Below are positions 9,309 through 62,372 of a DNA stretch of 64,000 nt, one piece after another. Under the pieces are notes generated by a model. It had not been told where the DNA came from. It was given only the letters and a program-made list of their open reading frames with translations, and made no database searches. The DNA comes from Rhizobium etli CFN 42 (GTDB lineage Bacteria > Pseudomonadota > Alphaproteobacteria > Rhizobiales > Rhizobiaceae), in contig NC_007763.1 in assembly GCF_000092045.1 (NCBI RefSeq), positions 62,001-126,000 of the forward strand. Reading direction: 5' to 3'. Position 1 is the stretch's first letter. Each line of letters begins with the position of its first letter. Made by a program: the position numbers and the translations under genes.

Positions 9309-11710
9309 TCAGAACGGCGATGGCTGGGTCGAGAGGCTAAGGCGCACGGGCAACAGCTTGTAAGACGGCGTCTTGGATTTCGCGTCGTGATGCGCCAGCG
9401 GAAAGAGCGGATTTGCCTCCGGGTAATAGGCTGCGCAGCAGCCTGCCGGAATATCGTGCCCGGCAACCCTGAAGCGCGTGACGCGGCGCGTCCGGGCAAT
9501 ATCGATGGCGGTCGTCAGGTCGACGAAATCGCCCTCCTTCAAGCCCATCCGGCGGATGTCGTCCGCATTCATGAAGACGACTTTCCTGGTTCCGTCTACG
9601 CCGCGGTACCGGTCGCTGCAACCATAGATCGTCGTGTTGAACTGGTCGTTCGACCGCAGGGTGGTGAGATTGAGGACCCGGTCGGCGGCCGGATCGATGA
9701 AAAACTCGGGAAAGAGCCGTGGCGGCGTGACGAAATTGGCCTTCTGGTTTGGCGTCGTCCATTTACGCTCGCGCGCCGGCACCGGCCGTGGGATGCCTCC
9801 AGGCTGGAACATCCGCTTGTTGAAGTCCCTGAAGGTCTCGGGATAGGTCGCTTCGATCGCATCGCGGATTTTCGAATAATCCCCCACCCATTCATCCCAA
9901 GGAACGCGGCCTTGCGTCAGCGTCGCCTTGGCGATGCCGGCGACGATAGCCGGCTCCGACAGAAGCTCGTCGCTTGCGGGCCTTGCCTTGCCGCGCGATC
10001 CGTGGAAATGCGCCACCGAACTTTCGATGGAGACGGCTTGCGCACCGCTCGATTGTTCATCGATCTCCAGCCGGCCGAGACAGGGCAGGAGATAGGCGAT
10101 CTCACCATGGATGACATGGCTGCGGTTGAGTTTCGTGGCAATCTGCACACTCAGGCGAAGTTTCCGCCACGCCTCTTCCATTGCGTCGGTTTCCGGGACG
10201 GCGCGCAGGAAATTGCCGCCGAGGCTGACGAAGGCCCTCGCTTCGCCTTCCATGATCGCTTTGCAGGTGTCGACCGTCGAGCGGCCCTCCCACTTCGGTG
10301 GCTCGAACTGGTAGAGTTCCGCCAGCTTGTCAGAGGCACCAGGCCTGGCTTTTCCGTTATGCCGACGGTGCGCTGTCCCTGGACGTTTGAGTGGCCTCGC
10401 ACTGCGCAGATATTGGCGCCGGGCTTGCCGACGTTCCCCCGCAAAAGGGCGAGATTGACCACCATCTGAACGTTCTGCACGCCCATGACCTGCTGGGTGA
10501 GCCCCATGCCGTAGATCATCAGCACGGCCTCGGAATTGGCATAGGTGCGGGCCGCCTGCGTCATCTGTTGGCGGGTCAGGCCGGAAATGCGCTCCAGTTC
10601 GGCCCAGTCGTGCCGACGCGCAGCGCCGGCGAATTCTTCGAAACCCGCCGTATGTGTCTCGATGAAATCGTGGTCGAGCACATGCCGTTTGTCGGCAGCA
10701 GCTATCGAGGCGGCAAACGCGACCGCTGCGGCGCTGGACGGATCGTCAGGCGAGGCGTCCTCGCCCGAGACCTTGCTCATGCCCGATGCCTTCATGGCAT
10801 CGTCGGCCTCGATCAGAGCCTTGCAGATCCCGAAGAGCGCCGCGACGTCGCCGCCATTCTTCACCTGATAATATTCGGAGGATATCGGCGTCGAGCGGCC
10901 CGTCAGCATCTGACTCGGTATTTGCGGATTGGTGAAATGTTCGAGGCCTGGCTCGCGCAAGGGATTGAAAGTAACGATCTTCACGCCTCTATCGACCGCG
11001 TCCTGCAGATCGTGAAGCATTCTCGGCGAGGAGGTCGCGACGTTCTGCGCCAGATAGAAAATGCAGTCGCAGTTCTGGAAATCGGAAAGAATTGCCGTGC
11101 CGACCGTGGCCCCGATGCTTTCGGGAAGGCCGACTGACGTGCTTTCGTGACACATATTCGAAGAGTCCGGCAAATTGTTGCTGCCGAAGATGCGCGCAAA
11201 CAGCTGATACATGTACGATGTCTCAAGAGCGGCACGTCCGGACGTATAGAAATCGACCTGCTGCGGGGGAACGGCCCGCAACTCTCTGCCGATTTCGTCG
11301 AAGGCTTCCTTCCAGCTGACCGGTTCGTATTTGTCGGTCCGGCTGTTCCATCGCATCGGATGTGTCAGACGACCTTGTTCTTCGAGATCGTGATCGCTCC
11401 ACTCTTCCAGCTCCTGCAATCTGTGAGCGGCGAAGAAGGCGCGGTCTGCGCGGCGCGTGGTAATTTCCCAGGCGGTCGCCTTTGCGCCGCTTTCGCAAAA
11501 TTCCATCGGATGGGGCTTCGCAGGCTTGGCCCAGGCGCAACTCACGCACATGTAGCCGTCAGGCTTGTTGTGATAGGCTAACAACGACGGTCCGGACCGC
11601 GGGACGTGTTCGCGTAGAAGAATTTCTCCAAGAGCTCTCGCCGCCGGCCATCCGCCGGCCGCGTGCGTGCTCTCACCGATAGTCGGATGATGTTTCGGTC
11701 TCGCAGACAT
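9309..11710 (-). pseudogene. YdeP/FdhF-type molybdopterin oxidoreductase, apparently frameshifted
   Basis: Two overlapping minus-strand frames together encode one protein of about 800 residues of the FdhF/YdeP family. The first (from ATG 11710, AAGAGGT-like site upstream) holds the N-terminal CVSCAW segment and the molybdopterin core up to GQRTVGITEKPG. The other continues with ASDKLAELYQFEPPKWEG and ends with the molybdopterin-dinucleotide-binding domain (VAGHDIPAGCCAAYYPEANPL). They join if one base is restored near 10335-10360. The family resembles formate dehydrogenase alpha subunits, but its substrate is generally unknown. The gene heads the oxidase operon. Confidence 0.75.
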
Positions 11711-36994: not shown

Positions 36995-37417
36995 TCAATT
37001 TTGCCACGGATCCAGCACGATAATGCCGGCGCCTTCGAAATCCCGGACATTGCGGGTAACGACGGTCAGGCCGTGAACCAGGGCGGTCGCGGCAATCAAG
37101 GCATCGGCTTCATTGCGCCGGTCTGGAACATGCAGATGCGCGCAGCGCGTCGCGACCGCATCGTCGATCGGCACGATACGGTCGGCGAATGCCGGTCGAA
37201 CCTGATTTTCCAGCCACGCACGAAGACGAGCGCCCTGCGCTGCATCGCGGCGCTGCACGCCGAGTATTCCACGTTCCAATTCCAGGATCGTCATGGCGGA
37301 GATGCATAGGCTTGTTGCATCTTGCGCTCCAGCCCATGCGACCACGTTCGCATCGGCCTTGCCGTCTCCGACCTTGCGTAGTTCGGAAACAACATTGGTA
37401 TCCAGCAGATACTTCAA
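36995..37417 (-). CDS. PIN-domain toxin, VapC/FitB type
   Basis: The 140-residue protein has the PIN acidic residues in MKYLLDTNVVSELRK (Asp6), ISAMTILELERGI (Glu) and NEADALIAATALVHGLTVVTRN (Asp pair). These proteins are Mg-dependent ribonucleases that cleave tRNA or mRNA. The gene overlaps the antitoxin stop as ATGA, the usual order of vapBC pairs. Its length and motifs look intact. Confidence 0.88.
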   Translation of the reverse strand: MKYLLDTNVVSELRKVGDGKADANVVAWAGAQDATSLCISAMTILELERGILGVQRRDAAQGARLRAWLENQVRPAFADRIVPIDDAVATRCAHLHVPDRRNEADALIAATALVHGLTVVTRNVRDFEGAGIIVLDPWQN

Positions 37418-37668
37418 GATAGATCGACTCCTCGGGGGGCGATCTCAACACGAGGCAGATCGAAGTCGATATCCGACAGGCCTGGCATTGAGAGAGCATC
37501 GACGAGAGTGCGGGGCTTGCCGGTTAGCCGCTCGAATTCGTCATAGGTCATCAACACGTGGGATGGCTTCCCACGATCCGTGATGATGACCGGACCATTT
37601 TGCGCCGCCTTCTTTGCCCTGCTCACGTCGTGATTTAGTTCGCGGCTGGAAAGATGTGTCACGCTCAT
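37414..37668 (-). CDS. Phd/YefM-type antitoxin
   Basis: The 84-residue antitoxin has an N-terminal DNA-binding half (SSRELNHDVSRAKKAAQNGPVIITDRGKPSHVLMTYDEFERL), typical of Phd/YefM proteins, and a C-terminal acidic/hydrophobic tail for toxin binding. The ATG at 37668 has GGAGG 7 bases upstream. A palindrome directly in front probably serves autoregulation. Confidence 0.88.
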   Translation of the reverse strand: MSVTHLSSRELNHDVSRAKKAAQNGPVIITDRGKPSHVLMTYDEFERLTGKPRTLVDALSMPGLSDIDFDLPRVEIAPRGVDLS

Positions 37669-37680
37669 AATCCACCTCCG

Positions 37681-37700
37681 ATGTAGGCACTTACCTACAT
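37681..37700. promoter_or_regulatory. Palindromic operator of the toxin-antitoxin pair
   Basis: Arms of seven bases, atgtagg and cctacat, flank a six-base centre just upstream of the antitoxin ribosome-binding site. This is the expected place for an antitoxin or toxin-antitoxin complex to repress its own promoter. Binding is inferred. Confidence 0.55.
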
Positions 37701-37913
37701 ATAGCATCCGGAGAGTGAAAGGCAAGATCAGCCATAACGCTCCGGAGCTGATCGGGCAACCGATCGCGGCGACGTCGGGTCACGATCGCGAAATTGATAC
37801 GGGCCTAAACGATGTCGGGATATTGGCTTCCCAGATCATCTTTGATCTAGTCTCGACTCTCAGCCGGGCAGCCCAGCCGCGGCTGGCATCCTAAGAGCGA
37901 GAGCCGTATTCTC

Positions 37914-38828
37914 ATGACCACTCACCGCTTCATTCCGACGATCTTTCACAATGTCATCGGCTCTCTTCCGCCCGCTTGGCATATCGCTGACGGCGATACC
38001 GTCGTCACGGAGACGCTCGACGCCATCGGCTATGACAAGGACGGCATCCGGCGGACCTCCGGTCCCAACCCGATGAACGGCCCGATCTTCGTCGAAGGCG
38101 CCGAACCCGGAGATGCGCTGAAGGTCGAGATCATCAGCATGATCCCTACACGGGACACTGGTTTTACCCGGAGCATCGTCGCGGCCAATGTCATCGATCC
38201 CGAAACGGTTCGCGACCTGCCGCCGCGCGATATGGCGATTTGGGCCATCGATCGCGAAGCCTTGACCGTACGGTTGTCGGAGCCGGTTGCCGGCCTTGAA
38301 AATTTCATTCTGCCGCTCGCCCCGATGATCGGCTGTTTCGGCGTGGCACCGGGTTTAGGTCAGGCGATTTCGACGGCGACGAGCGGGGAATATGGCGGCA
38401 ATATGGACTATCGCCGGTTCGGTCCCGGCACCACAGTTCGTTTCCCGGTATCGGCTCCCGGTGCGCTTTTCTTTCTCGGCGATTGCCATGCCATCCAGGG
38501 CGATGGTGAGATCGTCGGTACCGGCGTCGAGACCACCTTCGAAGTGACGGTGCGACTGACGGTGGAAAAGAAGGCTGGCCTCATCTGGCCGCGCGGCGAA
38601 ACCGCCGAAGACATCTTCACCATCGGCAATGCCCGGCCCCTCGATCAGGCGCTTCAGCATGCCACCAGTGAAATGCTGAACTGGCTCGCATCGGACTACG
38701 GCCTTGACAAGACGGCGGCAAGCCATTTGCTGGGTCAGGTGGTGCATTACGATGTCGGCAACGTCTTCGATCCGGCCTATACGATCGCCTGCCGGGTTGC
38801 CAAGAAATGGCTGGTCCGCCGATCGTGA
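37914..38828 (+). CDS. Acetamidase/formamidase family protein
   Basis: The 304-residue protein matches the FmdA/AmdA family: GPIFVEGAEPGDALKVEI near residues 56-73, APMIGCFGVAP, GGNMDYRRFGPG and the metal-site-like FFLGDCHAIQGDGEIVGTGVE. It probably hydrolyses a short-chain amide to ammonia plus acid in the cytoplasm, giving a nitrogen source. It stands alone, convergent with the peptidase-like gene that follows. The substrate is not readable. Confidence 0.85.
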   Translation: MTTHRFIPTIFHNVIGSLPPAWHIADGDTVVTETLDAIGYDKDGIRRTSGPNPMNGPIFVEGAEPGDALKVEIISMIPTRDTGFTRSIVAANVIDPETVRDLPPRDMAIWAIDREALTVRLSEPVAGLENFILPLAPMIGCFGVAPGLGQAISTATSGEYGGNMDYRRFGPGTTVRFPVSAPGALFFLGDCHAIQGDGEIVGTGVETTFEVTVRLTVEKKAGLIWPRGETAEDIFTIGNARPLDQALQHATSEMLNWLASDYGLDKTAASHLLGQVVHYDVGNVFDPAYTIACRVAKKWLVRRS

Positions 38829-38844
38829 CGGACCGGGTTACGGG

Positions 38845-39747
38845 TCAGTCGTAGCGCGACAGGAAGCCGGAAACCGTCGTAAGGCAAAGCTGCTTTTCCT
38901 CGACATGCGGCATGTGGCTGGAATGTTCGAAGAGCACCCACTCGCAGCGGGGCACGCGTTCGAGATAGGGCCTCACGACCAGCGGCGTCGCCTCGTCGTA
39001 CTTGCCGGAGATCAGCAGCGTCGGCGCTTCGATGCGGTCGAGCCTGTCTTCGATCGTCCAGTCCTTCATCGTTCCGATGACATGGAATTCGGTCGGGCCG
39101 TTCATGTTGCGATAGACTGTGTTGTCTTCGTCCATGATCGCGAAGGTGCGTGCAACTTCGGGCGGCCATGGCGCCACGCGGCAGACATGGCGATCGTAGA
39201 ACGCGCGTGAGGCGGCGATGTAGTCCGGATGGGTGAGGCTTCCCGCCTCTTCATGCTTCAGCAGCGTGTCCTGGACCTCTTTCGGCAGTTCCTGGCGGAG
39301 CCGATTGGCTTCGGCAACCCAGGTGTGCATGTTGGCCGGGGAGTTGGCAATGACAAGCGCCTTCAGACCTCGCGGCCGGCGCACAGCATGTTCGGCGCCG
39401 AGCATGCCGCCCCAGGATTGGCCCAGGAAGGCGTAACGATGCTCGATGCCGAGATGGGCGAGCAGAGCGCTCAGCTCTTCGAGGAAGAGGTCGACCGTCC
39501 AGAAGTCCGGGCCCCTGTCGGGAAGGCGGGTGGAATTGCCGTTGCCGAGCTGGTCGTAATGGATCACCGCGCGGCCATCGAGAGCGGCGATGTCCCTGAA
39601 GGAATCGACATAGTCATGCGTGCAGCCGGGTCCTCCGTGAGCAACGACGAGAGGCAACTTGTCGCTATCGAGTGAACCGGTGACGCGGTACCAGGTCCGG
39701 TAATCGCGAAAGGGCAGATAGGCTTCACTTGTTGCGACTTCGGTCAC
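38845..39747 (-). CDS. Proline iminopeptidase-like alpha/beta hydrolase (pip paralogue 1)
   Basis: The 300-residue hydrolase has the oxyanion motif [13 protein letters not shown], the nucleophile elbow [11 protein letters not shown] (Ser), the acid SGKYDEATP (Asp) and the final HSSHMPH (His). It belongs to the prolyl/proline iminopeptidase branch that releases N-terminal residues from small peptides or amides. The GTG at 39747 (GGAG 6 bases upstream) suits the family start. A GTG at 39813 overlapping the regulator stop would add a 22-residue hydrophobic leader. It is co-directional with the LuxR gene and probably its target. Confidence 0.85.
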
Positions 39748-39809
39748 CGACTTCTCCAATCCTCGAAGGTTCGGAAACCATAACGCGGCGGCGACGGCGA
39801 AGGCAGCTA

Positions 39810-40604
39810 TCACAAGTTATAGGGTGACCAGGTCTGAGTCGGCCGGTCTTCAAGCAGGCGGTAGTGGGTGGCGCGCACCACAGCCTGCGTTCGATTGCGG
39901 GCGCCGAGCTTCTTTGCTGCGGCATTGAGATGCATGACCACGGTGGGTACGGAACGGTCGATGATGCGGGAGATTTCCTTGGCCGAATAGCCTTCCGCAG
40001 AATGGCGCAAACATTCGCGCTCCCGTTCTGTCAGGCGGATGCCGACGCTTTTGTCCTTCCTGTCGAAAAGCGCATAGGCTGTCTCGTGAAAAACATGCGC
40101 CAGCAGGTTGAAGTCGGCGATATAGCGCAGCGCATGTCGTTCGAAATCGCTGTTCCGGCCGAAACGGATGCCGGTGACGGTCGCGTAGTCTCCGCGCGGC
40201 ATATGCACCGGAACAGTGACGCCGGTAGACATGTCGCGTTCACTCAAATAGCGCGTCACCGGTGCAGTGTCCTCGCTCATAAAGCGCCTGATCAGCGTAT
40301 CGGCGTCGGGATCATAGTTCCAGAAAAACGGTGCGGAGGTGCGCAGCGCCACCTGTTGGACCGGATCGATGCGGAAATAACCGCGATCGAACCAATAGTC
40401 GTGCATGTCCTCGGCGATGTTCCTGAGCTTCAGCAGCGACGGTACCATGATCACGCCATCAATATCATAGGGTACCGGCGTATAATCATAGATGAGGGCC
40501 TCGAAGCCCAGCTGCTTCATTGCCTCGAAAGCCTGGTCGATCCGGCCCTCCAGCGTTTCATGCGTCGTAAACTGCCGTCTGATCATTCCGATGTCATCAA
40601 GCAT
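39810..40604 (-). CDS. LuxR solo of the plant-signal-responsive (PipR/OryR-like) subfamily
   Basis: The 264-residue regulator has an autoinducer-type sensor (about 20-180) and a C-terminal LuxR helix-turn-helix ([21 protein letters not shown], then [16 protein letters not shown]). Aligned with TraR, Asp70, Pro71, Trp85 and Gly113 are kept (Asp80, Pro81, Trp95, Gly128). Trp57 is Met67 and Tyr61 is Trp71. Those two changes are the described hallmark of LuxR solos that answer plant compounds instead of acyl-homoserine lactones. DNA-binding residues Glu195, Leu199 and Gly205 are conserved. No luxI gene is in the window. It lies between two peptidase-like genes and beside a peptide importer. Confidence 0.9.
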
Positions 40605-40634
40605 GGGCGTCCCCGGTTCGGCAAGCGCCCTACC

Positions 40635-40650
40635 CTATCACTTCTTATAG
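40635..40650. promoter_or_regulatory. Weak candidate operator in the luxR-pip divergent region
   Basis: CTAT and ATAG flank eight bases in the intergenic space between the divergent luxR-type and second peptidase genes. It is shorter than a typical 18-20-base lux box, so the assignment is tentative. Confidence 0.25.
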
Positions 40651-40730
40651 CTGGCACGGAGCGCGATTTCCGGTAAAAATTTAACCATGCCCAAATAATG
40701 AGCAAGGGATATTTTCTGCTGGAGCAATCA

Positions 40731-41621
40731 ATGTGGCGTGAATTGCAGCCGGACGCGCGATTTGAGGTCGGTGTGGATGGCTATCGCGTCGTCGCCTATA
40801 GTTTCGGGTCCGGCGACGAGACGGTCTTCTGCCTGAATGGCGGCCCGGGCCTGCCGTGCGACTATTTGCGCGAGGCGCACTCCTGTCTCGTCGACAAGGG
40901 TTGTCGTGTCATCGCTTTCGACCAGCTCGGCACCGGCGCTTCCGACCGGCCGGACGATCCCTCGCTCTGGACGATCGGCCGTTATGTCGAGGAGACGGAA
41001 ACGGTGCGCAAGGCGCTGGGGCTCGGCAAGGTCCACATGCTCGGCCATTCCTGGGGCGGGTGGCTGGCGATCGAATATGCGCTGACTTACGCTCAGAACC
41101 TCAAAACGCTGGTTCTCGAGGATACCGTCGCCGACATGCCGCATCTGATCTCGGAACTGGAGCGGCTGCGCGCGGCACTCGGTCCCGAAACCGTCTCGAT
41201 GATGCAGAAGCACGAGGCGCAGGGCACCTATAATCATCCCGAATATCTCGCCGCCGTCACCATCCTCAACCACCGCCATGTCTGCCGTCTGCCGGAATGG
41301 CCGGCGCCGGTCCGCCGCTCGCTCGACGACTGGAACATGGCGCCCTATGAGACGATGCAGGGGCCGAACGAGTTTCTCTATATCGGCAACCTCAAGGACT
41401 GGAACCGGATTGCCGATCTGCCGCGGCTGACGCTGCCGGTGCTGATCACCGCGGGAGAGCATGACGAGCTGACCCCGGCCTGCGCGCTGAGGATGAAGCT
41501 GGCGCTGCCGAATGCCGAGCTCAAGGTGTTTGCCAATGCCAGCCACATGCCCTTCTATGAGAACCCGCAGGATTATTATCCGGCGCTTCTCGATTTTCTG
41601 GCCCGGCACGAGGCAGGCTGA
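40731..41621 (+). CDS. Proline iminopeptidase-like alpha/beta hydrolase (pip paralogue 2)
   Basis: A 296-residue paralogue of the peptidase on the other side of the LuxR gene. It has FCLNGGPGLPCDY, the nucleophile elbow MLGHSWGGWLA, ITAGEHDELTP and NASHMPF as the catalytic set. The ATG at 40731 has GGAG 7 bases upstream, and another ATG at 40698 lacks such a site. It is divergent from luxR and starts the unit running into the peptide ABC importer, so it may process what the importer delivers or the inducing signal itself. Confidence 0.85.
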   Translation: MWRELQPDARFEVGVDGYRVVAYSFGSGDETVFCLNGGPGLPCDYLREAHSCLVDKGCRVIAFDQLGTGASDRPDDPSLWTIGRYVEETETVRKALGLGKVHMLGHSWGGWLAIEYALTYAQNLKTLVLEDTVADMPHLISELERLRAALGPETVSMMQKHEAQGTYNHPEYLAAVTILNHRHVCRLPEWPAPVRRSLDDWNMAPYETMQGPNEFLYIGNLKDWNRIADLPRLTLPVLITAGEHDELTPACALRMKLALPNAELKVFANASHMPFYENPQDYYPALLDFLARHEAG

Positions 41622-41672
41622 TGCAAGAGGCAGTGGACCGGAGCCGACGAAGTCAAAGGGGCGATCGCCGTC

Positions 41673-42611
41673 ATGCATCGCTATAAGTTTGTTCTGACGC
41701 GACCGTTGCAGTTCCTGCCCGTCATTTTCGGCATCAGCGTCATCACTTTCATTCTGGTCCGCCTGATCCCCGGTGATCCCGCCCGCAACATTCTCGGCAC
41801 GCGCGCGACGCCGGCAGCCCTTGCCGGCATCCGCGCCCAATACGGCCTCGATCAGCCGATGTGGGTGCAATATCTCTACTTCCTCAAGAACCTCGCCAAT
41901 GGCGAGATGGGCAAGTCGATCCTCTATAAAGTCGACGTGCTGAAGCTGATCGTCACCCGCATCGAGCCGACGCTTGCGCTCGTCGCCTCCAGCGTCCTGC
42001 TGTCGGTGCTGATCGCGGTGCCGCTGGCGGCAATCGCCGCACGCAATGCCGGCCGCGCGTCGGACCATGCGGTGCGCATCGTCTCGACCTTCGGCATCGG
42101 TTTTCCCCCCTTCTGGCTGGGACTGATGCTGATCATCCTCTTCAGTGTCGAGCTCGGCATGCTGCCGGTTTCGGGCTATGGCGAGACCATCGGCGACAAG
42201 CTTTCCCATCTTGTGCTGCCGAGCCTGACGGTGGCGCTGTCGCTCTCGATCGTTTTGACGCGAAGCCTGCGGGCGGCGATGATCGAAGCGCTGAAGTCGG
42301 ACGTCGCGACGGCGGCGCGCGCCCGCGGCATGCCGGAAGGCATCGTCTTCTGGCGGCATGTGCTGCCGAATTCGCTGGTGCCGACGATCAACCTGCTTGC
42401 GGTCAATATCGGCTGGCTGATCGGCGGCACGGTGGTGGTCGAGAGCGTCTTTGCGCTGCCCGGCATGGGGCAACTGCTTGTCAGGGCGATCTTTTCACGC
42501 GACTACATGGTGGTTCAGGGCGTCGCCATGGTCTTTGCCTGCGCCACCGTGCTCATCAATTTCCTCGCCGACATCGTCACCGTCGCCGTCGATCCGAGGG
42601 TGAAGTTATGA
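41673..42611 (+). CDS. Peptide ABC transporter permease (DppB type)
   Basis: The 312-residue permease has six predicted helices and the DppB/OppB features LIPGDPARNILG near residues 29-40, GLDQPMWVQYLYFLKNLANGEMGKSI and the ATPase-contact EAA loop LPEGIVFWRHVLPNSLVPTINL-like region around 220-240. It forms the translocation channel with the adjacent DppC-type subunit. It overlaps that gene as ATGA. It lies 51 bases after the second peptidase gene. Confidence 0.9.
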   Translation: MHRYKFVLTRPLQFLPVIFGISVITFILVRLIPGDPARNILGTRATPAALAGIRAQYGLDQPMWVQYLYFLKNLANGEMGKSILYKVDVLKLIVTRIEPTLALVASSVLLSVLIAVPLAAIAARNAGRASDHAVRIVSTFGIGFPPFWLGLMLIILFSVELGMLPVSGYGETIGDKLSHLVLPSLTVALSLSIVLTRSLRAAMIEALKSDVATAARARGMPEGIVFWRHVLPNSLVPTINLLAVNIGWLIGGTVVVESVFALPGMGQLLVRAIFSRDYMVVQGVAMVFACATVLINFLADIVTVAVDPRVKL

Positions 42612-43459
42612 GCGTCGAGGCGATCGTGCCTGCATCGCCCGGCTGGCGCCGGTTTTTCCGCCGGCAGCTGATGCTTGCCGTCGGTGCCGGCCTGCTGCTG
42701 TTTTTCGTCCTGCTGGCAGTCGGCGCGCCCATCATCGCGCCCTATGACCCGATCATGCAGAATGCCGAAGTGCGGCTGCAGGCGCCGTCATTGCTTCACC
42801 CGTTCGGCACCGACAATTTCGGCCGCGATATCCTGTCTCGCGTCATCTGGGGCGCGCGCATCGATCTGCAGATGGCGCTGATCGGCGTCATCTTCCCCTT
42901 TCTGATCGGCACGACGGTCGGCACGGTCGCCGGCTTCTTCGGCGGCATTGTCGACGCGCTGTTCATGCGTCTCGTCGATATCATCCTCGCCTTCCCCTTT
43001 CTCGTGCTGATGCTGTCGATCATCGCGATTCTCGGCCCTGGTCTCGGCAGCTTCTACATATCGATGGCGCTGGTCGGCTGGGTGTCCTATGCGCGGCTGA
43101 TCCGGGCGCAGATGCTGGTGCTGAAAAGCAGCGACTACGCCGTTGCCGCCGTCAGCCTCGGCTTCAGCCGCCCGCGCATCATGTTCCGCCACCTGCTGCC
43201 GAACGCAATCGCCGGATCGATCGTCTTTTCCATGTCCGATGCGACGCTGGTGCTGCTCAGCGGCGCCGCCGTCAGCTATCTCGGTCTCGGCGTCCAGCCG
43301 CCGATCGCCGAGTGGGGCGTCATGGTTGCGGAAGGGCAGAGTTTCATCACCACCGCCTGGTGGATCACGCTGTTCCCTGGCCTTTCCATCGTCTGCCTCG
43401 CCTTCGGTTTCAGCATGCTGGGCGATGCGCTGGGCGAGTTGCTGGGGGTGCACGAATGA
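42608..43459 (+). CDS. Peptide ABC transporter permease (DppC type)
   Basis: The 283-residue subunit has the N-terminal hydrophobic segment typical of DppC (LMLAVGAGLLLFFVLLAVGAP), then HPFGTDNFGRDILSRVIWGARIDL and the EAA loop GFSRPRIMFRHLLPNAIAG. It pairs with the DppB-type permease. Both ends overlap neighbouring genes as ATGA, so the whole transporter is translationally coupled. Confidence 0.9.
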   Translation: MSVEAIVPASPGWRRFFRRQLMLAVGAGLLLFFVLLAVGAPIIAPYDPIMQNAEVRLQAPSLLHPFGTDNFGRDILSRVIWGARIDLQMALIGVIFPFLIGTTVGTVAGFFGGIVDALFMRLVDIILAFPFLVLMLSIIAILGPGLGSFYISMALVGWVSYARLIRAQMLVLKSSDYAVAAVSLGFSRPRIMFRHLLPNAIAGSIVFSMSDATLVLLSGAAVSYLGLGVQPPIAEWGVMVAEGQSFITTAWWITLFPGLSIVCLAFGFSMLGDALGELLGVHE

Positions 43460-45189
43460 GCGGCTCCCTGCTCTCCGTTCGCGATCTCACCGTCAGCGCC
43501 CATCTCGATTCCGGCCCGCGCACGCTGCTTGATGCAGTGTCGCTCGATCTCGGCAAGGGCGAGGTCCTCGGCCTCGTCGGCGAGAGCGGTTCAGGCAAGA
43601 GCCTGTTCTGCCGCTCCCTGCTGCGGCTGCTGCCCTCCTCGCTGTTGAAGATCGAAAGCGGATCGGTGCTGCTCGAAGGACGCGACCTCATGCGGGTCGA
43701 CGACGGCGAAATGCTGACGGTGCGCGGCGGCGAGGTCGGCATGATCTTCCAGAACCCGACCAGCCATCTCGACCCGGTGATGCGGGTCGGCGAGCAGATC
43801 GCCGAGGGCATTCGCTATCACGAGAGGCTCGGCGCCCGCGAGGCTCGCGCTGCTGCGACTGATATCCTGGCGCAGGTCGGCTTCCCCGATCCGAAGCGTC
43901 AGTACGACAGCTATCCACACGAATTTTCCGGCGGCATGCGGCAGCGGGCAATGATCGGCGTGGCTTTGTCCTGCAACCCGAAAATCCTGATTGCCGACGA
44001 GCCGACGACGGCACTCGATGTGACCATCCAGGCACAGATCCTGCGGCTGTTAATCGATATTCGCGACCGGCGCGGACTGTCGATCATTCTCATTACCCAT
44101 GATCTTGGCATCGTCGCCCAGACCTGCGACCGCATTGCCGTGATGCGCGGCGGCAAGCTGATTGAAGCGGGGCCGAAGCGGGCGATCCTCGCACGGCCGC
44201 AGCATCCCTATACAGTCAGCCTGATCGACAGCCACCCTTCGATGTCAGGCGAGACTCCCACGTCCTCGCCCGAGGTGGCGGTCGCCGGCCGGCAGGCGGG
44301 ACTAATGCTTGAAATCGACGATCTCCATGTGCAGTTCAGAGCCGGCGGCGGCCTGCTGAAGGGCGGCGCCAAGACGGTCAGCGCGGTTTCCGGCGTCAGC
44401 CTGCAGATCCTGGCCGGGGAGACGGTCGGCATCGTCGGTGAATCCGGCAGCGGCAAGAGCACGCTTGCCCGCGCCGTGCTTGGCCTTACGCCCCTTTCCT
44501 CCGGTCATGTCACTTTCGACGGCGTCGATCTGGCGCTGCAGAAGCGCGCGGGCCTGGCAAAGCTCAGGCGCGAAACGGCGATGGTTTTCCAGGACCCCTA
44601 TAATGCGCTCAATCCTGGATTGACGATCGGTCAGATGCTTGCGGAGGTGCTGAAGGTGCAGGGCAAGGTGGCCAAGGCGGATATCCCGGCGCGGATCGAC
44701 GCTCTGCTCGATCTCGTCGGCCTCGAACGCGAATTCGCTGGCCGCAAACCGCGCAGCATGAGCGGCGGCCAGTGCCAGCGCGCCGGCATCGCCCGGGCCC
44801 TCGCCGTCGACCCGAAGATGATCATTGCCGATGAATGTGTCGCCGCCCTCGACGTCACCATTCAGGCGCAGATCATCGAACTCTTCCGCGAGCTCACCGC
44901 GAAGATGAACCTGACGCTGATCTTCATCGCCCATGATCTCGCGATCGTCCGCAATCTCTGCGAACGCGTGGTCGTCATGTATCGCGGCGAGATCGTCGAG
45001 GAAGGCCGCTGCGAAGAGGTCTTCGCGCGGCCGAAGCATGCCTATACGGCGGCGCTGATCGCCGCCATTCCCGACATCGATCCCGACAAGCCGCTGCCGC
45101 GGGGCGCCGGCGGCAAGGAGGATCTGCAATCGATACCGATCCAGCCCATCAAAACGCATGCCATAACAACGAAGGGGACGAACTCATGA
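43456..45189 (+). CDS. Peptide ABC transporter, fused DppD-DppF ATPase
   Basis: The 577-residue protein contains two complete ABC ATPases: Walker A GESGSGKSLF (about 36-45) with LSGGMRQR-like signature FSGGMRQRAMIGVAL, and Walker A GESGSGKSTL (about 330) with MSGGQCQRAGIARAL. The two Walker B sites are LIADEPTTALD and IIADECVAALD. In the second, Cys replaces the usual Pro after Glu (DEC instead of DEP). Fused oligopeptide ATPases of this kind serve GsiA-like importers. It overlaps both neighbours by four bases. Confidence 0.9.
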   Translation: MSGSLLSVRDLTVSAHLDSGPRTLLDAVSLDLGKGEVLGLVGESGSGKSLFCRSLLRLLPSSLLKIESGSVLLEGRDLMRVDDGEMLTVRGGEVGMIFQNPTSHLDPVMRVGEQIAEGIRYHERLGAREARAAATDILAQVGFPDPKRQYDSYPHEFSGGMRQRAMIGVALSCNPKILIADEPTTALDVTIQAQILRLLIDIRDRRGLSIILITHDLGIVAQTCDRIAVMRGGKLIEAGPKRAILARPQHPYTVSLIDSHPSMSGETPTSSPEVAVAGRQAGLMLEIDDLHVQFRAGGGLLKGGAKTVSAVSGVSLQILAGETVGIVGESGSGKSTLARAVLGLTPLSSGHVTFDGVDLALQKRAGLAKLRRETAMVFQDPYNALNPGLTIGQMLAEVLKVQGKVAKADIPARIDALLDLVGLEREFAGRKPRSMSGGQCQRAGIARALAVDPKMIIADECVAALDVTIQAQIIELFRELTAKMNLTLIFIAHDLAIVRNLCERVVVMYRGEIVEEGRCEEVFARPKHAYTAALIAAIPDIDPDKPLPRGAGGKEDLQSIPIQPIKTHAITTKGTNS

Positions 45190-46700
45190 CAAACAGGTGG
45201 AAATCAATCGGGCTCGCAGCCTTCCTCGCCGGTCTGGCGCTCAGCGCCAGCTATGCCGAAGCCGCCGGTGTGCTCACCATCGGCCGCCGCGAGGATTCGA
45301 CGATATTCGATCCGATTAAAACTGCCCAGAACATCGACAATTGGGTATTCTCAAACGTCTACGACGTGCTGATCCGCGTCGACAAGACAGGCACGAAGCT
45401 GGAGCCCGGTCTTGCCGAAAGCTGGACGGCCTCGGATGAGGGCCTGACCTACACCTTCAAGATTCGCGATACGAAATTTTCCGACGGTTCGCCGCTGACG
45501 GCAGAAGACGCGGCCTACAGTCTTCTGCGCATTCGCGACGATCCTGCCTCGCTCTGGAGCGATTCCTACAAGGTGATTGAAACGGCGATCGCGACCGACA
45601 CGCATACGCTGACGATCAAGCTCAAAAACCCGTCTGCGCCGTTCCTCTCGACGCTTGCGCTGCCCAATGCTTCGGTCATCTCCAAGAAGGGCATGGAGTC
45701 CCTGGGTGCCGAGGCCTACGGCGAAAAGCCGGTCGCATCCGGCGCCTTCGTCATTGACGAATGGCGGCGCGGCGACCGGGTGATCCTGAAGAAGAACCCC
45801 AACTTCTGGCAGGCCGACCGCGTCAAGCTCGACGGCGTCGAATGGATCTCGGTTCCTGACGACAACACCCGAATGCTGAACGTTCAGGCCGGTGAGCTGG
45901 ATGCGGCGATATTTGTTCCCTTCTCCCGCGTCGAAGAGCTGAAAAAGGATCCCAATCTCAATGTCGACATCGATGCTTCGACGCGAGAGGACCATCTGCT
46001 GATCAATCACGCGCATGGTGCGCTCGGCAAAAAGGAAGTCCGTCAGGCGCTCGATATGGCCATCGACAAGAATGCGATTGTCGATGCCGTGACCTTCGGC
46101 CAGGGAACTGTCGCCAATTCCTACATTCCGAAGGGAGCTCTCTTTCACTACGCCGACAATCTGCAGCGGCCCTACGATCCCGCGAAGGCCAAGGAGATGC
46201 TGGCGGCGGCCGGAGCGTCCGATCTGACGCTGAATTACCTCGTGCGCGCGGGCGACGAAGTCGACGAACAGACGGCCATCCTAGTCCAGCAGCAGTTGCG
46301 GAAGGCTGGCATCACCGCCAACCTGCAGAAGGTCGATCCGAGCCAGGAATGGGACATGACCGTTGCCGGGGATTACGACATCTCGGTCAACTACTGGACC
46401 AACGACATTCTCGATCCGGACCAGAAGACCACCTTCGTTCTCGGCCATGATTCCAATAACAACTATCTGACCAACTATAAGAACGAGGCGGTGAAGGAAC
46501 TGGTCGCCAAGGCGCGTCTCGAGCTCGACCCGAAGAAGCGTGAAGAGATGTATGTCGATCTGCAGAAAATGGCGAAGGAAGACGTCAACTGGATCGACCT
46601 CTATTACAGCCCTTATATCAACGTCTCGCGCAAGAATATCGACAACTTCCACCAGAACCCGCTCGGCCGTTTCTTCCTGGAGGATACGGTCAAGAACTGA
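45186..46700 (+). CDS. Peptide-binding protein of the ABC importer (DppA/SBP_bac_5 type)
   Basis: This 504-residue periplasmic protein has a signal peptide (about residues 1-27, ending in YAEAAG) and the family-5 binding fold: TYTFKIRDTKFSDGSPLTAEDAAYS, then the C-terminal domain with NYWTNDILDPDQ. It should bind small peptides or a peptide-like signal and hand them to the permease. It is last in the pip-dpp unit and is followed by a strong terminator. Confidence 0.9.
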   Translation: MTNRWKSIGLAAFLAGLALSASYAEAAGVLTIGRREDSTIFDPIKTAQNIDNWVFSNVYDVLIRVDKTGTKLEPGLAESWTASDEGLTYTFKIRDTKFSDGSPLTAEDAAYSLLRIRDDPASLWSDSYKVIETAIATDTHTLTIKLKNPSAPFLSTLALPNASVISKKGMESLGAEAYGEKPVASGAFVIDEWRRGDRVILKKNPNFWQADRVKLDGVEWISVPDDNTRMLNVQAGELDAAIFVPFSRVEELKKDPNLNVDIDASTREDHLLINHAHGALGKKEVRQALDMAIDKNAIVDAVTFGQGTVANSYIPKGALFHYADNLQRPYDPAKAKEMLAAAGASDLTLNYLVRAGDEVDEQTAILVQQQLRKAGITANLQKVDPSQEWDMTVAGDYDISVNYWTNDILDPDQKTTFVLGHDSNNNYLTNYKNEAVKELVAKARLELDPKKREEMYVDLQKMAKEDVNWIDLYYSPYINVSRKNIDNFHQNPLGRFFLEDTVKN

Positions 46701-46783: not shown

Positions 46784-47659
46784 TTACTCGGCGGCCGCCA
46801 GCTTGTCTTGCGTCCTGGTCTCGAAGTCGCTGGCGTCGTGGCGCTCGTGCAATTGCGTCGAGGGTTCGCCGGAGAGGCGATTGACCATCCGGCCGCGCTG
46901 TACGGCCGGCCTGCTGTGGATGGCGTCGGCCCAGCGCAGCACGTTCTTGTAGTCCTCGACCTGCAGGAACTCGGCCGCCCCGTAGGTCCAGCCCTTCACC
47001 AGGCCACCATACCAGGGCCAGATGGCAATATCGGCGATCGTGTATTGGCTGCCTGCCACATATTCGCTTTCGGCAAGACGGCGATCGAGTACGTCGAGTT
47101 GACGCTTCACTTCCATCGCGAACCGGTCGATCGCATATTCGATCTTGACAGGCGCATAGGCGTAGAAATGGCCGAAGCCGCCGCCGAGATAGGGCGCGCT
47201 TCCCATCTGCCAGAACAGCCACGACAGGCATTCGGCGCGCTCACTCGGCTCGGTCGGCAAGAAAGCGCCGAATTTCTCGGCGAGATAGGTGAGGATGGCG
47301 CCGGACTCGAAGACGCGGATCGGCTTCGGGCCGCTGCGGTCCATCAGCGCCGGGATCTTGGAGTTGGGATTGACGGCGACAAAGCCGCTGCCGAACTGGT
47401 CGCCCTCGCCGATCTTGATCAGCCAGGCGTCGTACTCAGCACCGCTATGGCCAAGGGCCAGCAGTTCCTCGAGCATGATCGTGACCTTCTGGCCGTTCGG
47501 CGTGCCGAGCGAATAAAGCTGCAGCGGGTGGCGGCCGATCGGAAGCTCCTTCTCATGTGTCGGTCCTGCTATCGGGCGGTTGATGTTGGCGAATTGGCCA
47601 CCATTTGCCTTGTTCCAGGTCCAGACCTTCGGGGGGATATAGTCGGAGGTACCGCTCAT
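46784..47659 (-). CDS. yghU: Glutathione S-transferase-like disulfide reductase (YghU/Nu-class)
   Basis: The 291-residue protein has the YghU-type extended N terminus (YIPPKVWTWNKANGGQFANINRPIAGPTHEKELP), a thioredoxin-like domain with QLYSLGTPNGQKVTIMLEEL, and ALMDRSGPKPIRVFESGAILTYLAEK for glutathione binding. A helical C-terminal domain follows. Members reduce disulfides with glutathione in the cytoplasm. AGGAG lies 8 bases before the ATG. It is a single gene convergent with the peptide importer. Confidence 0.9.
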   Translation of the reverse strand: MSGTSDYIPPKVWTWNKANGGQFANINRPIAGPTHEKELPIGRHPLQLYSLGTPNGQKVTIMLEELLALGHSGAEYDAWLIKIGEGDQFGSGFVAVNPNSKIPALMDRSGPKPIRVFESGAILTYLAEKFGAFLPTEPSERAECLSWLFWQMGSAPYLGGGFGHFYAYAPVKIEYAIDRFAMEVKRQLDVLDRRLAESEYVAGSQYTIADIAIWPWYGGLVKGWTYGAAEFLQVEDYKNVLRWADAIHSRPAVQRGRMVNRLSGEPSTQLHERHDASDFETRTQDKLAAAE

Positions 47660-61538: not shown

Positions 61539-62372
61539 TCAGGCTTTGCCTTGAAAGCCTTGCTTGAGCCAGGGATGCAGTGCCTTGCTGGCGGCGAGGA
61601 TATCGCCCTTCCCGTCGACTTCGGCGCCGGAAAAACGGGTGACGATGCCGCCCGCCTCTTCGACCATCAGCGCCGATGCGCCGAAATCATGGATCGAAAG
61701 CCCATCCTCGAAGAAGCCGTCCAGCCGGCCGCAGGCGACATAGGCGATCGACAAAGCCGCCGAGCCAAGGCGGCGGACGCCAGCCGTGTTGGCCATCAGG
61801 CGCTTGATCGCGTCGAAATAAGTCTCTTCCGCCACCGCCTTGACCTGACCGGGGACCGGCAGCCCGGCACCGATGAGCACGTTCTCGATGTCGCCGACAT
61901 CGGCGCAGCGGATACGCTCGCCATCGAGATAAGCGCCGCCGCCGCGCTCGGCGCTGAACAGCTCGTCCTGCATGGCGTCATAGACGACGCCGGCCACCAG
62001 ACTGCCGCCTTCGGCGATTGCGATCGTCATGCCAAAATGCGGGACGCCCCAGGCATAATTGGTGGTGCCGTCGATCGGGTCGATGTAGATGATCGGCGCG
62101 TCGGGCCCGGCCGTGCGGTTGCCGACGGCTTCCTCGCCCTGGATGGCATAATCAGGAAAGGCCTTGGTCATTTCGTCGACGATGATCCGCTCGACGGCGA
62201 CATCGATCTCGGTCTGATAGTCACGTGGCGCCTTGGCGAGCATTTCCCGAGAGGTTCGCCGCCGCAGCGAGACGCGGGCGGTTTCGCCCGCCTTCACTAC
62301 GGCTTCAGCAAGCACGACAAGGCGGGATGACGCGGTCGGTGAAAGACGCGCTGATATCAGGGAGGATGCCAT
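61539..62372 (-). CDS. Inositol monophosphatase-family protein
   Basis: The 277-residue phosphatase has the metal sites GEEAVGN (Glu), IDPIDGTTNY (Asp-x-Ile-Asp-Gly-Thr) and the C-terminal SIHDFGASALMVEEAGG with the catalytic-domain Asp. The family includes inositol monophosphatase, 3'-phosphoadenosine 5'-phosphatase (CysQ) and fructose-bisphosphatase-like enzymes. Its position 111 bases after the ABC ATPase gene on the same strand suggests a role with an imported sugar or inositol phosphate. Confidence 0.85.
   Translation of the reverse strand: MASSLISARLSPTASSRLVVLAEAVVKAGETARVSLRRRTSREMLAKAPRDYQTEIDVAVERIIVDEMTKAFPDYAIQGEEAVGNRTAGPDAPIIYIDPIDGTTNYAWGVPHFGMTIAIAEGGSLVAGVVYDAMQDELFSAERGGGAYLDGERIRCADVGDIENVLIGAGLPVPGQVKAVAEETYFDAIKRLMANTAGVRRLGSAALSIAYVACGRLDGFFEDGLSIHDFGASALMVEEAGGIVTRFSGAEVDGKGDILAASKALHPWLKQGFQGKA

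Follow-up and report, generated by a model that had tools for sequence, protein, structure and literature searches.

A NesR-type LuxR solo with two peptidase genes and a peptide importer in Rhizobium etli CFN 42, and two predicted operators

Which genes does a LuxR-type regulator serve when no luxI gene lies beside it, and what might it sense? The question is raised by a plasmid-borne locus of Rhizobium etli CFN 42, situated in a stretch of 64,000 nucleotides (positions 62,001 to 126,000 of NC_007763.1, our contig C4 of the 6.53-Mb genome) that we analysed as a whole and call the window. Here a luxR gene stands between two genes for proline-iminopeptidase-family hydrolases, pip1 downstream of it and pip2 divergent from it, with an oligopeptide importer following pip2 (Table 1). 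We find this peptide-uptake locus, with its LuxR sensor between two peptidase genes and its importer, to be real but an ordinary member of a group already described. We consider it very probable that the regulator, a LuxR solo of the NesR/PipR type known from plant-associated bacteria (PAB), is a dedicated local switch for its own neighbours.

A 20-bp imperfect palindrome, CCCTATnACTTnTnATAGCT, precedes each peptidase gene and is probably the operator of the LuxR protein. The copy on the pip2 side (the upstream box) is centred at -88.5 from the pip2 start and at -38.5 from that of luxR; the other (the downstream box) lies before pip1. GTDB contigs were scanned with an alignment of 31 LuxR relatives, and the best 80 of 156 loci were taken for comparison. 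Aligned non-coding stretches of relatives contain one strongly conserved block in each of two gaps, and both blocks fit CTATnAnnnnTnATAG, a pattern found twice in the window against a mean of 0.00 in 100 shuffles. Of the 80 named relative loci, 79 have the core pattern before both peptidase genes. For the box count 79 of the 80 were scorable (the unscored locus, L076, had both boxes on later inspection); the upstream box was present in 79/79 and the downstream box in 78/79, with no further copy in their 1.43 Mb. Of 22 loci in a second set, the window among them and some strains repeated from the first, 21 were scorable and all of these had both boxes; two plasmid loci likewise carry both.

Read towards the peptidase gene, the upstream box is CCCTATCACTTCTTATAGCT, with 18 of its 20 bases at 99–100%, one at 97% and the first at 59% among the 102 loci with a match, with the reservation that ten positions were fixed by the search pattern, so that their conservation is preset. 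The consensus of the downstream box is (T/C)CCTATAACTTGTGATAGCT. Flanks and spacing of the boxes are near-invariant across the scored loci: the upstream box is centred at -88.5 from pip2 in 58/79, and the downstream box between -66.5 and -72.5 from pip1 in at least 73/78. The luxR stop codon falls inside the downstream box in 74/79 loci, and for this reason a Tyr-Asn-Leu/Phe C-terminus is common in LuxR. Both boxes have the form CT(N12)AG, the core named for the pip boxes of Xanthomonas (PMC4471428). Pip boxes of this subfamily are already known; the rhizobial consensus was not met with in literature searched by system names, not by motif, and we claim no priority for it. The "pip box" of PMC3826837 is the HrpX PIP box and was set aside as unrelated.

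Across the genome the full 20-mer without mismatch occurs just at the two boxes of the cassette, and with up to three mismatches there are three matches (the two boxes and one elsewhere, at three mismatches), compared with nine for the reversed control. A looser pattern separates the same-genus genomes by the regulator: all 22 with LuxR have at least two boxes, and all 15 without it have at most one. What stands out is not how many boxes there are but where they lie, the full 20-mer and the link with LuxR. A third loose box (C2:3652511) was considered as a target and rejected, the same sequence being present in G001 and G018, two genomes that lack LuxR.

A survey of gene order, proposed in the first-pass annotation of this DNA, found luxR, pip1, pip2, both permease genes, both ATPase domains and the binding-protein gene in the same order and on the same strands in all 80 relative loci (in L076 pip1 is cut by a contig end), which argues that the layout is not due to chance. 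Among 61 sampled genomes, LuxR was matched (at E 1e-30 or better) in 22 of the 37 that belong to the same genus, counting the window's own, and in none of the 24 outside it. The binding protein and pip2 are found in exactly those 22 genomes and in one outsider, G051, a co-occurrence that we count in favour of a dedicated switch. At E 1e-50, LuxR is present in 23/199 genomes of the family and 12/398 of the phylum, with the window's own genome in each. The cassette is an accessory one that moves as a unit in the sampled genomes. Among named plasmids the best match of LuxR is pRetMIM1a of R. etli bv. mimosae Mim1 (99.2% identity), with a second R. etli plasmid beside it, and LuxR identity is 97–99% in R. 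esperanzae CNPSo 668 and R. etli Mim1.

To which class of sensor does the regulator belong? Residues were placed by a manual count anchored on a HMMER alignment with LasR and RhlR, not by a curated alignment, using what we take to be the TraR equivalents of the LasR positions. On this count Lys59, Ile63, Met67, His68, Trp71 and Phe72 correspond to TraR 49, 53, 57, 58, 61 and 62; Asp80, Pro81, Val82, Gln83 and Trp95 to TraR 70, 71, 72, 73 and 85; and Val116, Leu120, Met125, Gly128 and Thr144 to TraR 101, 105, 110, 113 and 129. The earlier assignment of Met and Trp to TraR 57 and 61, with Asp70, Pro71 and Trp85 kept, holds good. Fourteen of these 16 pocket positions are invariant in all 80 relatives (TraR 58 and 62 vary), and Met/Trp at 57/61, Gln73, Val101 and Leu105 occur in 80/80.

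These features support the identification of the regulator as a PAB-type LuxR solo accompanied by peptidases and a peptide importer. The traits of such solos found here are Trp at TraR 61 and Met at 57; V72, Q73, V101, L105, M110 and T129; a LuxR protein with PF03472 and GerE domains without a paired luxI; pip genes on both sides; and a CT-N12-AG site before pip. Among the 18 PAB solos in Table 1 of PMC3821632, position 57 is M in 13/18 and W in 5/18. All 12 cluster-1 and cluster-2 positions of the window LuxR carry the commonest PAB residue of that table, and at the four variable positions its types are those of 5/18 (Lys49), 4/18 (Ile53), 8/18 (His58) and 4/18 (Phe62) solos. Eight other LuxR-domain genes are present in the genome; of six usable reads, five have W/Y at 57/61, and one other LuxR-domain gene has M/Y there with Ser at 70.

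The rhizobial version was already described; it belongs to the NesR group, for which Rhizobium is named in surveys of 2015 and 2023. The window LuxR is 83% identical to its counterpart in Ensifer aridi LMR001 (L084) and 84% to that of Sinorhizobium meliloti 4H41, and NesR, a PAB solo of subgroup 0, lies in loci with the same gene order and both boxes; the window locus differs in being plasmid-borne and in adjoining fmdA and yghU. The four published primers for deletion of E. aridi nesR match L084 exactly at luxR, so the L084 orthologue is the NesR of that study. A plant response of NesR, presented earlier as established, is inferred only: a 2013 paper says that it had "not yet been addressed" (PMC3821632), and one of 2018 that it "warrants investigation" (PMC5977203).

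The PipR/AapA-F/PipA system of Pseudomonas sp. GM79 likewise combines an aapA-importer operon divergent from pipR-pipA, two peptidases and an AapF-type binding protein. Its sites at -71.5 (pipA) and -91.5 (aapA) are near the -67.5 and -88.5 of the window (PMC4981722), and PipR-dependent activity was lost when two bases of the pipA site were changed (PMC4981722). The aapA site overlaps the pipR coding sequence, unlike the window box. Two supposed departures from the PipR layout have to be read differently. GM79 also has two pip paralogues (pipA, aapA), in a layout that its authors liken to Ensifer meliloti nesR (PMC4981722). The fused ATPase does differ from the GM79 importer, which has two ATPase genes among its five, but it is the rule among rhizobial loci, where both domains lie in one open frame in 78/81 (L041, L102 and L106 have a frame break or stops).

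Nor do both sensor changes mark PipR, as had been assumed, since the GM79 protein combines Trp at 61 with an unchanged Trp at 57 (PMC4981722); with Thr53 and Trp57 it differs from the Ile53 and Met57 of the window LuxR (PMC7301841, PMC4981722). When the PipR pocket residues Lys96, Thr100, Trp104 and His105 (PMC7301841, section 7) are equated with TraR 49, 53, 57 and 58 by order alone, the two proteins have Lys49 and His58 in common, with Thr53/Trp57 replaced by Ile/Met, a comparison that offers a lead on the ligand and is no test of it. In another species, a close homologue of the binding protein cannot bind N-(2-hydroxyethyl)-2-(2-hydroxyethylamino)acetamide (HEHEAA) (PMC10134790). OryR and XccR of Xanthomonas share W57M, Y61W, an adjacent pip gene and the CT(N12)AG box. 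Xanthomonas has an amino acid-polyamine-organocation (APC)-type transporter in place of a linked ATP-binding cassette (ABC) importer (PMC4981722), the cluster-3 residues are Met/Ala/Gln/Cys in OryR (our own reading of PMC7301841) vs Lys/Ile/His/Phe in the window, and wider targets are reported for OryR/XccR than in the two-site picture drawn here (PMC4399327).

By analogy with GM79, we suggest that a small, hydrophilic compound of peptide-like or amide nature, probably plant-derived, would be bound by the AapF-like protein, imported, and then bound by LuxR in the cell. Ligand-bound LuxR would occupy the two operators, one before pip1 and one in the divergent luxR/pip2 region, and through them both peptidases and the importer would be induced, while the peptidases may in turn use up the inducer or a related compound. 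The predicted operator pair implies only two strong binding sites, and it makes the ligand and the direct targets of rhizobial members directly testable by reporter and minimal mutation.

The operator pair also bears on a published mutant. The E. aridi nesR deletion is given as 749 bp (table of PMC8877191). By our own arithmetic the primers delimit L084 9037–9785; the pip1 box at 9766–9785 falls inside, and primer C begins at 9786. The deletion has therefore to be flagged as one that probably removed the neighbouring pip1 operator together with the regulator, and its phenotype may mix two effects.

Several observations weigh against a switch of this kind. Conservation over the 80 loci is inflated, as close relatives dominate them; the downstream box has two mismatches in L101, and in the loci examined that represent other classes of the phylum a box is diverged or was not found. 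The loose 10-base pattern is not rare, its reversed control giving 0–6 matches per same-genus genome. The GM79 aapA promoter responded weakly to PipR, and Kosakonia PsrR showed no pip induction under the conditions tested. The S. meliloti nesR promoter is reported to bind ExpR with N-acyl-homoserine lactone (AHL) (PMC5977203), so that the switch may not stand alone. Finally, G051 has a pip-pip-importer module without LuxR, and such a module can thus exist without this regulator.

The G051 module also speaks for the strongest of the rival explanations, a nutritional operon in which the inducer is the imported substrate, peptides or amides of any source, and no plant is needed. This account overlaps with that of a local switch, the difference being the meaning of the compound for the cell; we give it nearly even prospects. 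It accords with the location of the 20-mer sites solely at uptake and hydrolysis genes, with the ties of NesR to carbon-source use and stress (PMC3821632), and with the presence of relatives on a human-faecal plasmid of Klebsiella variicola and in an intertidal bacterium (37% identity). While PipR of GM79 answers peptones and Ser-His-Ser too (PMC4981722), it is acted on by HEHEAA at low concentration, and the subgroup is described as plant-associated, with leaf or rice macerates acting on several of its members.

It seems unlikely that NesR instead governs the methionine cycle and stress response broadly, with the pip and transporter genes as minor targets. The lowered nodulation and salt tolerance from which its authors read NesR as a methionine-cycle regulator (PMC8877191) was seen in E. 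aridi with the 749-bp deletion, which by our reading of the printed primers seems to take the pip1 operator too. For OryR and XocR, action on flagellar and other genes via pip-box-like sequences has been reported (PMC4399327), but no further 20-mer at two or fewer mismatches is present in the R. etli genome and the single three-mismatch site is within the reversed control, a result that concerns full-length sites only. The opposite extreme, in which rhizobial NesR would be a closed two-operator switch with its own cassette as the whole direct regulon, is one that we put forward tentatively, with the chances leaning against it. Stress, methionine and nodulation phenotypes would then be indirect or due to loss of the pip1 operator, and the ligand would be HEHEAA-like (shared Lys49/His58), with adaptation at Ile53/Met57/Phe62 (TraR numbering). 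Our confidence was lowered because ExpR binding at nesR and the wider OryR targets speak against it.

An AHL-responsive LuxR whose synthase was merely lost is very improbable. Asp70, Pro71, Trp85 and Gly113 are kept and the genome has several LuxI-type matches, but Met/Trp at 57/61, Gln73, Val101 and Leu105, held by all 80 relatives, are the PAB types, and PipR and OryR gave no answer to the AHLs tested (for PipR, PMC4981722). That the regulator and its flanking genes are chance neighbours without any control between them is hardly credible, given the order held in 80/80 loci and the boxes in common.

Table 1. Genes of the cassette and predicted operators (window positions)
Feature	Positions	Strand	Basis or remark
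luxR: PAB-type LuxR solo, NesR orthologue (PipR/OryR group)	39810..40604	-	PF03472 102 bits + PF00196 50 bits; pocket residues
pip1: proline-iminopeptidase-family hydrolase, downstream of luxR, in PipA's place	38845..39747	-	TIGR01250 257 bits
pip2: proline-iminopeptidase-family hydrolase, first gene of transporter operon, in AapA's place	40731..41621	+	TIGR01250 272 bits
Permease, OppB/DppB type, AapB-like	41673..42611	+	PF00528 137 bits
Permease, OppC/DppC type, AapC-like	42608..43459	+	PF00528 85 bits, OppC_N
Fused double ATPase of importer: two ABC domains, one protein	43456..45189	+	PF00005, two stretches
Substrate-binding protein, SBP_bac_5, AapF homologue	45186..46700	+	PDB 7kz8/7kz9
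Predicted LuxR operator for pip1, CCCTATAACTTGTGATAGCT	39805..39824 (16-bp core 39807-39822)	-	overlaps luxR stop codon; centre -67.5 from pip1 start
Predicted LuxR operator for pip2-transporter operon, possibly luxR too, CCCTATCACTTCTTATAGCT	40633..40652 (16-bp core 40635-40650)	+	conserved block

The places and families of the genes in the first-pass annotation were borne out by open reading frame positions and profile matches, and so were the proline-iminopeptidase-like genes on both sides of luxR, which exceed the TIGR01250 cut-off of 168 bits; the pip2 protein also aligned with the solved proline iminopeptidase 1mt3. The absence of luxI from the window was likewise confirmed, with six matches to the LuxI profile PF00765 genome-wide and none on contig C4. 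The importer, described as five-component, does have five domains but is encoded by four genes. Its binding protein matches PDB 7kz8/7kz9 (molecule named AapF) at E 7.1e-237 and 790 bits over residues 23–504, and on this alignment it is a close relative of the AapF of the solved structure.

Both peptidase starts required revision. That of pip1 is most likely GTG 39747 and not 39813, because the luxR-pip1 gap varies in length among relatives by numbers of bases not divisible by three; the RefSeq start in the near-identical plasmid pRetMIM1a is the equivalent of 39747. For pip2, ATG 40731 is most likely and not ATG 40698, since the latter is not the consensus among relatives and RefSeq uses the 40731-equivalent start in pRetMIM1a. 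A sigma-70 consensus scan of 39700–40800 gave no promoter-like site. A second conserved, AT-rich stretch (GGTAAAAATTTA...CATGCCC; 86 aligned relatives) lies at 40660–40700, between the upstream box and pip2, and is perhaps a promoter or the site of another regulator.

Among ten more distant LuxR relatives, seven have Met/Trp at 57/61 and one (L138) Leu/Trp; L129 and L130, from another class of the phylum, have Trp/Trp, as reported for GM79 PipR. Strict boxes beyond the genus number two in Phyllobacterium zundukense (L137), two in the order-level relative L128 and one in the class-level relative L133. Imperfect boxes were found between luxR and pip2 in L129 and L130 (one or two mismatches), beside luxR in L132 (two mismatches), and after luxR in L135 (Rahnella, two mismatches) and L136, the K. 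variicola plasmid (CTAGCATTTTTGCTAG, two mismatches). L131 and L138 have no box at the locus.

In G051, where neither a LuxR match at E 1e-30 nor a box was found, L142 (G051:C21, 1812–8871) has two tandem pip genes, an importer and a binding protein of 52% identity. In L131 (G412:C15, 6447–8746) an APC-like permease adjoins the PAB-type LuxR (Met/Trp), and tblastn with pip1, pip2 and the binding protein gave no match in the 17 kb covered; this locus seems to break the rule that PAB solos have a pip gene next to them. L138 (7001–9474), from Roseicitreum antarcticum, an Antarctic intertidal bacterium of non-plant setting, has the LuxR of 37% identity, with a pip-family gene, a gene related to nitrilases and ABC importer genes of the iron type in its vicinity.

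The cassette is flanked by further genes. An acetamidase/formamidase-family gene (PF03069, fmdA) at 37914–38828 is convergent with pip1, with 16 bases between them. It adjoins pip1 in 24/80 relative loci (some of the remainder are cut by contig ends), and on this count it was dropped as a cassette member. The ligand of the GM79 system being an acetamide, the presence of an amide hydrolase next to the cassette is no more than suggestive. On pRL9 of R. johnstonii 3841 a tblastn match has 94% identity to the acetamidase, yet no gene is annotated at that stretch, perhaps a pseudogene. A Phd/YefM-VapC type II toxin-antitoxin pair (RefSeq names in pRetMIM1a) also adjoins the cassette, at 36995–37725. 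At the other end, a yghU-type glutathione-dependent disulfide-bond oxidoreductase gene (46784–47659) is convergent with the binding-protein gene and is found in 27/80 relative loci. The neighbourhood in pRetMIM1a agrees with the window genes from about 33.5 to 49.6 kb.

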